Positions 43,168 to 47,338 of a stretch of DNA of 64,000 nt are shown piece by piece. The stretch is from Tatumella ptyseos (lineage in GTDB: Bacteria > Pseudomonadota > Gammaproteobacteria > Enterobacterales > Enterobacteriaceae), in the NCBI RefSeq assembly GCF_030552895.1, contig NZ_CP130649.1, positions 682,001-746,000 of the forward strand. Reading direction: 5' to 3'. A model generated the notes under the pieces. That model saw only the letters and a program-made list of their open reading frames with translations. It had not been told where the DNA came from and did not search any database. The translations under genes were made by a program, and so were the position numbers. Numbering within the stretch: the first letter of the stretch is position 1; every line of letters begins with the position of its first letter.

Positions 43168-44049
43168 ATGACTGCGAGCTATCTTAAGTTTCCACAATTT
43201 GACCCGGTAATTTTCTCTATCGGTCCAATCTCCCTTCACTGGTATGGGTTGATGTATTTGGTCGGCTTTATTTTCGCCATGTGGTTAGCAACCCGGCGTG
43301 CAAATAAGCCTGGCAGTGGTTGGACCAAAAACGAAGTTGAAAATCTTCTCTACGCCGGTTTCTTAGGGGTATTTTTAGGGGGCCGGATCGGTTATGTCTT
43401 ATTCTATAACTTACCGCTTTTCTTAGAAAATCCGCTCTATCTATTCAAAGTTTGGGACGGTGGAATGTCGTTCCACGGTGGGTTAATTGGTGTCATTGTC
43501 GTGATGCTAGTATTTGCCCGTAGAACCCACCGTAACTTCTTCCAAGTTTCCGATTTTATTGCGCCGTTGATTCCATTTGGCTTAGGCGCAGGTCGCTTAG
43601 GTAACTTTATCAATGGTGAGTTGTGGGGACGTGTAGACCCTAATTCGTCTTGGGCAATGTTGTTCCCAGGCTCCCGTGATGAAGACATAGCCTTAATCCC
43701 AAGCCATCCGCAGTGGCAATCTCTGCTAGACACCTATGGCGTACTGCCGCGTCACCCCTCGCAGCTATACGAATTAGCCTTAGAAGGTGTGGTCCTCTTT
43801 ATTATTCTGAATCTGTTTATTCGTAAACCGCGTCCAATGGGCAGTGTTTCGGGTCTATTTCTGATAGGCTATGGCGCTTTCCGTATTATCGCCGAGTTTT
43901 TCCGCCAGCCTGATGCGCAGCTTGGGTTATTCGGTGGGGTGATCAGCATGGGGCAGATCTTGTCTATCCCAATGATTGTCGCTGGAGTGATAATGATGAT
44001 TTGGGCATACAAACGCCAGTCAAAGACTGTAACGAGTGAAGTAAAATGA
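43168..44049 (+). CDS. lgt: Prolipoprotein diacylglyceryl transferase
   Basis: 293 residues, seven membrane helices. Transfers diacylglycerol from phosphatidylglycerol to the lipobox cysteine of prolipoproteins, the first step in maturing the lipoproteins found in this window. Conserved segments include [33 protein letters not shown] (essential His in FHGGL) and the signature [16 protein letters not shown]. Its stop overlaps the thyA start (ATGA), giving the standard lgt-thyA operon. Confidence 0.97.
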
Positions 44050-44840
44050 ACCAATATTTGCAACTGATGCAGAAAGTCCTCTCTGAAGGCGCGGTAAAAG
44101 ACGACCGTACCGGTACTGGAACCTTATCTATTTTTGGTCACCAAATGCGCTTCGATCTGCAACAGGGTTTTCCCCTCGTCACCACCAAAAAATGCCATCT
44201 GCGCTCAATTATTCATGAGTTACTGTGGTTTTTGAAAGGCGACACTAATATCGCTTACCTGAAAGAGAACAAGGTAACGATTTGGGATGAGTGGGCAGAT
44301 GAGCAAGGGAACTTAGGTCCGGTTTATGGTCAACAATGGCGTAGTTGGCCAGCCGCTGATGGCCGTCATATCGACCAAATTAGTGAAGTGATCCGCCAGA
44401 TTAAACAGGACCCCGATTCACGCCGCATCATCGTATCAGCGTGGAATGTGGGAGAGTTAGATAAAATGGCGCTGGCGCCTTGTCATGCCTTTTTCCAATT
44501 CTATGTGGTAAACGGTAAATTGAGTTGTCAGCTCTATCAACGCTCTTGTGATGTGTTCTTAGGCTTACCTTTTAACATCGCCAGTTATGCTTTATTAGTG
44601 CATATGATTGCGCAGCAGTGCGATCTCGAGGTGGGCGATTTCGTCTGGACAGGCGGAGATACGCATCTCTATTCCAATCACTTGGAACAGGCGAACCTAC
44701 AATTAAGCCGCGAACCTCGAGCGCTTCCTAAATTGGTCATTAAGCGTAAGCCTGACACCATTTTTGATTACTGCTTCGATGATTTCGATATCGAAGGCTA
44801 CGATCCACATCCAGCGATCAAGGCCCCCGTCGCAATTTAA
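44046..44840 (+). CDS. thyA: Thymidylate synthase
   Basis: 264 residues, exactly the E. coli length. Methylates dUMP to dTMP with methylene-tetrahydrofolate. The nucleophile is C146 in [12 protein letters not shown]; folate- and dUMP-binding segments ([31 protein letters not shown]) are conserved. It is translationally coupled to lgt and ended by a strong terminator, which separates it from the rhodopsin operon. Confidence 0.98.
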
Positions 44841-44884: not shown

Positions 44885-44918
44885 AAGTCTGTAACCCTAT
44901 TAGGGTTGCAGACTTTTT
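44885..44918 (+). terminator. Intrinsic terminator after thyA
   Basis: Nested stem AAGTCTG...AACCCTA / TAGGGTT...CAGACTT followed by six T's, 44 bases after the stop. Confidence 0.9.
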
Positions 44919-45128
44919 TCATTTCAATACCCTATAATTCGTTATCTTTTCAGCGCATGCTTAATCTACAATCTGGATTTTATCAAGCGGCGAGAAGAGT
45001 ATTTATTTTCATAAATATCGCTGTTTAAATTTGCAGAAAATTAATCCCCTCATATACTTATCTTCATATGATTATCCTGATCATTATGTTCAATAAGAAC
45101 TATTATAACTCTGTCTGGAGGGGGTTTA

Positions 45129-45839
45129 ATGGGCCAAGTTCCACTGATTGCCGGTTTTACAATAATGTCACTCTCGACATTATTAATTTACCTTTCTGGA
45201 AGGAAAAAAGTTGCCATTAAAAATCATGTTATGATGCATGCCATGGTCACCTTTATCGCTGCTACCGCTTATTTAGCGATGGCGTTAGGGGTGGGAAATG
45301 TAATGTCTGATAATGGAACAACTATTTATTTTGCGAGATATATTGACTGGTCTGTGACAACACCTATTTTATTAGCAGGCTTGGTGATGATTGCCTTTCA
45401 TGAATATGGTCCTTCAAGCCAAATAAGTGGATATTTAACGGCAATTATTGGCTTAGATATTATCATGGTCATTACAGGATTATTATCCTCGCTGGCAGAT
45501 GCTTTTATGTTGAAAGCAATCTGGTATTTATGGTCTTGTGTCGCCTTCCTGGGTGTACTTTTCTTATTATGGCGGCCCTTACGTAAAATTGCTGCGACGC
45601 GTGAACTCACGACTGCAGGAGGATATTACAAAAATATTACTCTGCTGACCTTAGTCTGGCTTATTTACCCTGTTGTTTTTCTGCTTGGGCCTGAAGGCTT
45701 AGGTGTAATCAGTGATGCAGCATCGGTATGGAGCTTCCTAGTGTTAGATGTTATCGCAAAAGTCTTCTATGCATTCTATGCGGCAAGAGTCTTAGTAAAA
45801 TCTTTCCAAACATCGACCATTGATAATACTACGGTATGA
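45129..45839 (+). CDS. Microbial rhodopsin, DTG-type light-driven proton pump
   Basis: 236 residues, seven helices, retinal-binding. Schiff-base lysine K211 (VLDVIAKVFYAFY) with counter-ion D207. The helix-C motif RYIDWSVTTP gives R70, D73 (proton acceptor, bacteriorhodopsin D85) and T77 (T89), but G84 stands where the proton donor (D96) should be. Aligning helix B by the YLxMxLG end places H37 opposite bacteriorhodopsin T46. Known DTG rhodopsins of proteobacteria pump protons using such a helix-B histidine in place of the carboxylate. The start has a very strong GGAGGGGG site. It looks more AT-rich than its neighbours, and is placed between thyA and ppdA, which adjoin in E. coli, implying acquisition. 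It is translationally coupled to blh (ATGA). No carotenoid genes are in the window. Confidence 0.95.
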   Translation: MGQVPLIAGFTIMSLSTLLIYLSGRKKVAIKNHVMMHAMVTFIAATAYLAMALGVGNVMSDNGTTIYFARYIDWSVTTPILLAGLVMIAFHEYGPSSQISGYLTAIIGLDIIMVITGLLSSLADAFMLKAIWYLWSCVAFLGVLFLLWRPLRKIAATRELTTAGGYYKNITLLTLVWLIYPVVFLLGPEGLGVISDAASVWSFLVLDVIAKVFYAFYAARVLVKSFQTSTIDNTTV

Positions 45840-46651
45840 GTGTCAAGCTGAACCGTAAAAGGGGCTGGATGTTACTTTATGGGGCAGCTTTCGCTGCCTC
45901 TTTTTGTCCACTAATGGTTCAACTACTCTTCGCCAGCGTAGCGATTGGCATCGTGGGTATGGCCCATGGCGCCAGTGATTTAGCCGTCGTTCCACCTGAA
46001 AAAAGAGTCGGATTCCTTTGCGGCTATGTCAGTATTATGACGGTCTGCTTGCTAGGCTGGCAGCACTTTCCCACCAGCGCATTACCTGGTTTCTTAGTGG
46101 CTTCAGCGATACATTTCACACTTGAAGAGCCGACGCAAAGCGGCTGGCTTACTCGTGTGGCCTTAGGTATAGGATTAGTAACTATCCCAGCGGTTTTTTA
46201 TCGTAGCGATACGGCCGATCTCCTAAACTATGCTGGATTCTCACCGGCAGCATTGGGGGTGATGATGAACCTACTCCAAGGGACCGGGGCACTCTGCGCC
46301 GGAGGATTAATTTGTCTGATGCTGTTTACTCAACAATATCGACGTTTCACTGGTGTGGTGGCGTTACTTTTTTTCCCACCATTAGTGGGGTTTTCTGTCG
46401 GTTTTTTAATTCTTCATGCTTTTCCACAAACTGATGAACGCTGTACTGCCTTGGGTTGTCGTAATTATTATGATTATTTACGAGTAACATGGCCTATATT
46501 AGTCGGTGCACTTCTCTTTACTTTTGCTGCTATATTTTTTTTATTACCTTCAGCACAAAATAGCGTACGTAATCTCTTTACACTACTTACCGCTTTAGCA
46601 TTGCCGCATTTATTAGTTACCCCTCTCTTTGAAAGAAAACGGATATTCTAA
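45836..46651 (+). CDS. blh: Beta-carotene 15,15'-dioxygenase (Brp/Blh family)
   Basis: 271 residues, polytopic membrane protein that cleaves beta-carotene into two retinals, the chromophore for the rhodopsin. Family motifs are visible: GMAHGASDL (H44, D48), AIHFTLEE (H93), FLILHAF (H194) and ALPHLLVTP (H258); the four histidines are the expected iron ligands. Length fits the family. Its ATG overlaps the rhodopsin stop, so opsin and chromophore enzyme are made together. It needs beta-carotene from crt genes elsewhere. Proline/membrane-rich and moderately AT-rich at the end. Confidence 0.93.
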   Translation: MSVKLNRKRGWMLLYGAAFAASFCPLMVQLLFASVAIGIVGMAHGASDLAVVPPEKRVGFLCGYVSIMTVCLLGWQHFPTSALPGFLVASAIHFTLEEPTQSGWLTRVALGIGLVTIPAVFYRSDTADLLNYAGFSPAALGVMMNLLQGTGALCAGGLICLMLFTQQYRRFTGVVALLFFPPLVGFSVGFLILHAFPQTDERCTALGCRNYYDYLRVTWPILVGALLFTFAAIFFLLPSAQNSVRNLFTLLTALALPHLLVTPLFERKRIF

Positions 46652-46861: not shown

Positions 46862-47338
46862 ATGCGATTATATTCTAGGATGTCTACCGCTGGATTCACC
46901 CTGCTAGAGATACTGATAGTGTTAGTGATCACTGCAGTATTAACAGGCTTAGGGAGTCAGTCCTTAAATCAGTGGCAATCTCGACAGCAGGTCAAGGCCA
47001 GTGCAAAAGAGTTAACCTATTTTTTAGATCGTTTACGCCAGCAGGCCAATGCCTATCACTTAACGATAAAATTTAGGCATTCGCTACAAAATGAGGAGAC
47101 AGAAATTAGTGCGGTAAGCGAACGCTGGACCGGTAGGAACAAAAAGTGGACGTGGAAACCTAACACTCCCAAAGTAAAGTTGTTAGCGGTGGTGGGTGAG
47201 CCCCGTTTTTTTGGAAAACATGGCACCGCTTGGCCGGGAAGCTTTGAAATTGGGAATCAGGCTACACGTTGGAGAGTCATTATTTCTACCCATGGCAGAG
47301 TCCGTTACTGCGAGAGCCATATTAAGGGGTGTCAATGA
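46862..47338 (+). CDS. ppdA: Prepilin-like protein PpdA
   Basis: 158 residues with a type IV pilin/pseudopilin leader: MRLYSRMSTAG then FTLLEILIVLVITAVLTGLG, cut after Gly with Glu at +5, followed by the hydrophobic helix. It closely resembles E. coli PpdA by leader and location at the head of ppdA-ppdB-ygdB-ppdC. An ATG at 46880 (MSTAGFTLLE) would give a leader of more usual length; neither start has a strong ribosome site. Probably a minor pseudopilin. Confidence 0.85.
   Translation: MRLYSRMSTAGFTLLEILIVLVITAVLTGLGSQSLNQWQSRQQVKASAKELTYFLDRLRQQANAYHLTIKFRHSLQNEETEISAVSERWTGRNKKWTWKPNTPKVKLLAVVGEPRFFGKHGTAWPGSFEIGNQATRWRVIISTHGRVRYCESHIKGCQ

Follow-up and report, generated by a model that had tools for sequence, protein, structure and literature searches.

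A probable mirror-type retinal photosystem in Rosenbergiella, with glutamine at a metal-histidine position of its Blh

The DTG rhodopsins PspR of Pseudomonas putida and PaR of Pantoea ananatis were reportedly described by Harris et al. in 2015. In the available parts of PMC10154332, PaR is among the published proteins, proton pumping is reported for both, and SpaR of Sphingomonas paucimobilis (PDB 8anq) is described as pumping outward, with a photocurrent about tenfold higher at pH 5.0 than at pH 7.8. The Schiff-base proton of SpaR is accepted by D73, and pumping is almost nil in the D73N variant; H37, of which seven variants are named, was proposed by the authors as the donor or as part of a donor group, and millimolar zinc inhibits the protein, perhaps through H32/H33/E92 or H33/H37 (PMC10154332). 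The same source reports MpR, a DTG rhodopsin of Methylobacterium, as a Na+/Li+ pump (PMC10154332). A DTG rhodopsin of Rosenbergiella nectarea (WP_092678153.1), expressed in E. coli in 2021, gave retinal-dependent colour with absorption at 533 nm, which is the property reported for it; in the accessible portion of that study, transport assays are limited to four other proteins, none of them from Rosenbergiella (PMC7979833). The carotenoid cluster is highly conserved in this genus according to the available text of PMC10142583. As for the Brp/Blh family, the part of a review that was available (PMC9227343) states that histidines 21, 78, 188 and 192 of Blh 66A03, from an uncultured marine bacterium, are each needed, alanine variants having less than 5% activity, and terms the four-histidine site absolutely conserved among the enzymes compared.

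We analyzed a stretch of 64,000 nucleotides, hereafter the window, that contains a rhodopsin gene at 45129-45839 (plus strand, as are all the features below that are given by position in the window; 236 aa) and a Brp/Blh-family gene, blh, at 45836-46651 (271 aa), a predicted beta-carotene 15,15'-dioxygenase. The rhodopsin scores 144.5 bits against Pfam Bac_rhodopsin (PF01036; cut-off 24.6); Blh scores 64.4 bits against Pfam BCD (PF15461; cut-off 28) and 81.7 bits against NCBIfam TIGR03753, below the cut-off of 95.25. These are the only rhodopsin match and the only Blh match in the genome (E up to 0.001; 3,215,174 bases in 2 contigs). The pair lies between thyA (44046-44840; PF00303), which is followed by a terminator-like hairpin at 44885-44915 (a 14-pair stem and then a T-run, as a consensus match), and a pilin-like gene with an N_methyl motif (46862-47338; PF07963) that starts 210 bp after the end of blh. 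We take the latter to be ppdA from its position.

The original prediction, that a DTG rhodopsin coupled to Blh sits between thyA and ppdA behind a ribosome site of its own, had exact coordinates for the pair and agrees with the locus in each of these respects. The stop codon of the rhodopsin gene and the start codon of blh overlap as ATGA (45836-45839), and the sequence GGAGGGGG stands at 45117-45124 as a ribosome binding site; its GGAG is aligned in 12/12 upstream regions from Erwiniaceae, duplicates counted. The coupling had also been put forward as a novelty, which does not hold: the two genes overlap in all 11 mirror loci examined (ATGA in 10, GTGA in 1).

The alignment of the window rhodopsin with SpaR is free of gaps over residues 5-223 (272 bits; 57.5% identity over these 219 residues), so that the numbering of the two proteins is identical and the key residues can be read directly. 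The rhodopsin carries D73, T77 and G84, the helix-C residues of the DTG/DTS/DTT type found in mirror proteorhodopsins, the retinal lysine K211 in helix G, and H33, H37, Y48, R70, E92, S121, Y180, E189, D196, S199 and D207. D73, T77, G84, H37, D207 and K211 are thus placed as had been claimed, and the position of bacteriorhodopsin T46, where another residue would have counted against the prediction, is occupied by histidine (H37; codon CAT, 45237-45239), presumed to be part of the cytoplasmic proton-donor group. SpaR shares D73, T77, H33, H37, E92, S121, S199 and K211 with the window rhodopsin, but has S84 and H32 in place of G84 and N32. PspR (7w74; 227 bits, 50.2% identity) and PaR have DTG and H37 as in the window, whereas G32 and G92 of PspR correspond to N32 and E92. 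Among the best 120 of 218 matches, the closest other rhodopsins have 99 and 98% identity to that of the window. By analogy, the window rhodopsin should work like SpaR with its first zinc site altered, since N32 (codon AAT, 45222-45224) stands at the putative zinc-site residue H32; as N32 replaces a highly conserved histidine, sensitivity to zinc may differ. Asn32 is present in 8/8 rhodopsins of the Rosenbergiella group (rows P0121-P0128).

To describe the clade, we counted residues in 122 clade rows, for which the best 120 of 218 matches and the window were used, and in 65 rhodopsins outside; because best matches were used, the clade counts here, like those for Blh below, refer to close relatives by construction. 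Within these best-match rows H37 and H33 are each present in 122/122, S121 in 109/122 and S199 in 110/122; in the outside rows the corresponding numbers are 45/65, 22/65, 0/65 among the residues listed, and 12/65. H37, on which the original prediction had leaned, is therefore not diagnostic, and neither H37 nor H33 alone was accepted as proof of membership in the clade. His32 occurs in 104/122 of the same best-match rows and is replaced by asparagine in the window; it is highly conserved in the mirror clade and does not define it, as the clade member PspR has Gly32. In a maximum-likelihood tree of 62 hand-chosen rows, from the best matches and 74 rhodopsin loci, the window rhodopsin falls into the clade of SpaR and PspR (34 of the 62 rows, support 100/100) and not with the Methylobacterium-type DTG rhodopsins, which form a separate clade; the phylogenetic placement that had been proposed as a check thus gives a DTG clade, specifically the mirror one. 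Nine Rosenbergiella rows group together at 100/100, and row P0129 adjoins them at 88/96. The branch of the mirror clade has a length of 1.53 and support of 100/100, with long-branch warnings (treekit) at its join to the outside rows and on PspR's own branch; because of these warnings, the mirror clade itself is more secure than the branching order of the groups within it and around it.

These data make it likely that the pair is a mirror-type retinal photosystem of Rosenbergiella, with retinal supplied in cis and an outward proton pump that is favored at acidic pH. In the proposed sequence of events, the chromosomal crt cluster would provide beta-carotene, the translationally coupled Blh would cleave it to retinal, and retinal would bind to the rhodopsin at K211; illumination with green light (the R. 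nectarea relative absorbs at 533 nm) would then move the Schiff-base proton to D73 and from there outward.

The first of these steps was addressed by the search for crtE, crtB, crtI and crtY that the original prediction had called for. A crt cluster was found at 459,398-465,621 of genome contig C1, in the order polyprenyl synthetase, glycosyltransferase, CrtY, CrtI and CrtB, with a CrtZ-like hydroxylase on the opposite strand. Lycopene cyclase CrtY (466 bits; NCBIfam cut-off 215) and the CrtI-family phytoene desaturase (754 bits; cut-off 238) are over their cut-offs, and phytoene synthase CrtB is just below (478 bits; cut-off 480). The polyprenyl synthetase is placed by domain (PF00348, 145 bits) and position; no NCBIfam model is over its cut-off for this protein, and the farnesyl synthase model outscores that of CrtE. 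The hydroxylase matches PF04116 at 31.6 bits (cut-off 31) and no NCBIfam model, and the glycosyltransferase has a Pfam domain match. The names CrtE, CrtX and CrtZ are our assignments from domain and position. A match to SQS_PSY is present in 5/5 Rosenbergiella genomes. Absence of a carotene pathway, together with absence of retinal binding, had been named as grounds for giving up the prediction; as the crt cluster is present, these grounds fall away, and production of beta-carotene by the host is likely from its gene content.

The second step had been taken for granted in the original prediction, according to which blh gives retinal. The assignment to the Brp/Blh family (PF15461) stands; the assumption of activity is weakened by a glutamine that aligns with one of the four needed histidines. 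We aligned 121 Blh of the window's kind, namely the window Blh and the best 120 of 130 matches, with 43 others, which are open reading frames beside other rhodopsins (loci L011-L075), and mapped the 66A03 positions through the Blh that bear HxxxH and through the H-x3 spacing rather than from the 66A03 letters. 66A03 has the family name, three metal histidines and the spacing in common with the window Blh; it differs in its fourth metal histidine, at which the window has Gln198 (codon CAA, 46427-46429), and the window Blh scores below the TIGR03753 cut-off. In this alignment of the best 120 of 130 matches plus the window, all 121 Blh have His44 and His194, 120 have His93, and at least 120 have each of D48, E97 and H258, while position 198 is Gln in 120/121 and Lys in 1, compared to His in 42/43 and Ala in 1 of the others. 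In a tree of 44 rows, picked by hand from these Blh and from the 74 loci mentioned above, the Gln and His kinds are split at 100/100. The AlphaFold model of the window Blh is confident (pLDDT 92.7), and no confident match was found for it among solved structures.

In a separate draw across the phylum (398 genomes), 11 had PF15461 matches, and 8 Blh from these were aligned (the window's own was not recounted, and two weak ones were omitted). Two have Gln and six have His at position 198. Both of the Gln type adjoin mirror-type rhodopsins: the rhodopsin of L109 is 79.9% identical to PspR, and L110 comes from a Pantoea-type genome that had already been sampled (G146). Three of the six His-type Blh lie beside other rhodopsins, and three have no rhodopsin within the 1.5-kb flanks. 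The linkage of Gln-type Blh to mirror rhodopsins was thus examined in the 11 mirror loci and in L109 and L110. A literature search, with most subscription journals outside its coverage, found no published report of this His to Gln replacement.

The replacement can be read in two ways. One is that the Blh of the pair has lost its activity on beta-carotene, so that retinal comes from elsewhere or the protein has some other role. The near-uniform Gln198 of the best-match set against His in the others, the histidine in all six further non-mirror Blh, and the activity below 5% of the His192Ala variant of the marine enzyme (the available part of PMC9227343) point that way; however, D48, E97, H258 and the three remaining metal histidines are kept, and neither the overlap with the rhodopsin gene in 11/11 loci nor a blh dN/dS of 0.15-0.17 is what a dead gene would be expected to have. 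We consider this reading unlikely. The other is that the Gln-type Blh, since its gene stays coupled and conserved, is probably active with an altered site. As a more specific form of the latter, we give about even weight to a Blh lineage that accompanies the mirror proteorhodopsins, with a replacement that predates the split of the Sphingomonas, PspR-type and Erwiniaceae copies, in which retinal would still be made through an iron site of three histidines, possibly with the glutamine.

Rates of substitution were estimated by the method of Nei and Gojobori; dS is often above 1 and is undefined in several pairs. Compared with the R. epipactidis-type locus, the window gives dN/dS of 0.042 for the rhodopsin gene and 0.171 for blh, and compared with the R. 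metrosideri-type locus 0.051 and 0.146; dS in these comparisons is 1.6-2.1, which is near saturation. Conservation of both genes across the genus, at dN/dS far below 1, makes the pair more than chance open reading frames. Between these two loci themselves (L099, L100), dS is 1.06 for the rhodopsin gene, 0.41 for blh and 0.13-0.27 for seven flanking genes. The rhodopsin dS is far above that of the flanking genes, and a rhodopsin allele has therefore probably been exchanged between Rosenbergiella species.

It should be noted that not every DTG rhodopsin is reported as a proton pump. MpR carries DTG and belongs to a neighboring clade, MpR-like Methylobacterium rhodopsins (DTG/DTS) often have His37 and a Blh nearby, as in the window, and the presence of H37 and H33 in 45/65 and 22/65 of the outside rhodopsins would allow a light-driven Na+/Li+ pump here as well. 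Several differences make this very unlikely. In our tree, in which the Methylobacterium rhodopsins stood in for MpR, the mirror clade is set apart from them, the long-branch warning applying to its join; S121 and S199 are of the mirror type; and the acidic residues described for MpR-like rhodopsins at SpaR positions 30, 31 and 33, in the available text of PMC10154332, correspond to I30, K31 and H33 in the window. The MpR-like Blh also keep the HxxxH pair. A light sensor in place of an energy-converting pump is about equally improbable: once SpaR, PspR and two structures named 'Rhodopsin' are set aside, the next matches with solved structures include xenorhodopsins and Anabaena sensory rhodopsin, yet the nearest characterized relatives pump (PMC10154332, as far as available), and no transducer gene was recognized among the neighbors (blh, thyA, lgt and pilin-like genes). 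The outward proton pump thus remains the preferred reading.

Upstream of the pair, a promoter-like block TTTGCA-17-TATACT is found at 45030-45058. The region has 6 promoter-like matches compared to 5.8 in shuffles, i.e., no excess. In a comparison of four Rosenbergiella loci the block aligns in every one, and its CATATACT core recurs 98-109 bp 5' of the ATG in 8/8 Pantoea/Erwinia loci (L004-L009, L085 and L086). Six of these upstream regions are distinct, as L085 is a repeat of L004 and L009 has 97.6% identity to L005. The core has one plus-strand occurrence in each of the ten sources counted and is absent from the 250 bp 5' of the Sphingomonas rubra gene. The pattern TTGCA-N14to16-CATATACT has a single occurrence in the whole genome, at this block. 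In the Pantoea copies, an ATATTC/GAATAT inverted repeat was seen by eye just 3' of the block.

The pair follows thyA in four of the five Rosenbergiella genomes that our set contains, with 2,021-2,122 bp from thyA to the ppdA match (window, L002, L003 and L098). In the fifth (G154), the pair is absent and a gap of 4,349 bp (L097:6165-10513) holds other genes, among which a 426 aa LdcA-like carboxypeptidase and a 68 aa IS3 OrfA-like frame were noted by eye. The pair has other neighbors in the Pantoea loci: in two Pantoea-type genomes it lies elsewhere in the chromosome, and thyA is separated from ppdA by no more than 198 and 188 bp, distances that run to where the ppdA match starts (residue 6 or 7). 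The rhodopsin is present in 5/392 genomes of the family, three in Rosenbergiella and two in the Pantoea-type genus, in a draw that included 4 of the 5 Rosenbergiella genomes. Lateral acquisition, as originally predicted, is likely in view of this patchy distribution and of the other chromosomal sites in Pantoea. The G+C content of the rhodopsin gene is 0.40 compared to 0.48 for the window; it was rejected as sole proof of lateral gain, because the G+C of the Pantoea copies is near that of their surroundings. A very recent, strain-specific insertion on a mobile element could draw on the same G+C difference and on the variable thyA-ppdA site, but is the least credible of the alternatives and was rejected, as the site is common to 4/5 Rosenbergiella genomes, among which the species have diverged, no repeat that convincingly flanks the pair was found (one AT-rich 19-nt pair of 79% identity has a copy inside the rhodopsin gene), and insertion-sequence genes were not recognized by eye among the window's open reading frames. 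The observations fit lateral spread at some time, together with descent and allele exchange within the genus.

The photosystem is thus real and probably functional. Its kind and its genus are already in print; the host, which had been proposed as a novelty, was preceded by the DTG rhodopsin of R. nectarea (PMC7979833) and by PaR of Pantoea ananatis (PMC10154332). What is new is the site in 4/5 Rosenbergiella genomes, the recurring promoter-like block and the Gln198 Blh. As a pump, the system extends what is known of a described clade by details of sequence and locus from a genus that lives in nectar. Nectar is often acidic, and it is attractive to suppose that a pump favored by acid would suit sunlit nectar of this kind. 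If the Gln198 Blh makes retinal, the four-histidine site, as published in the available part of the review (PMC9227343), would be no requirement.
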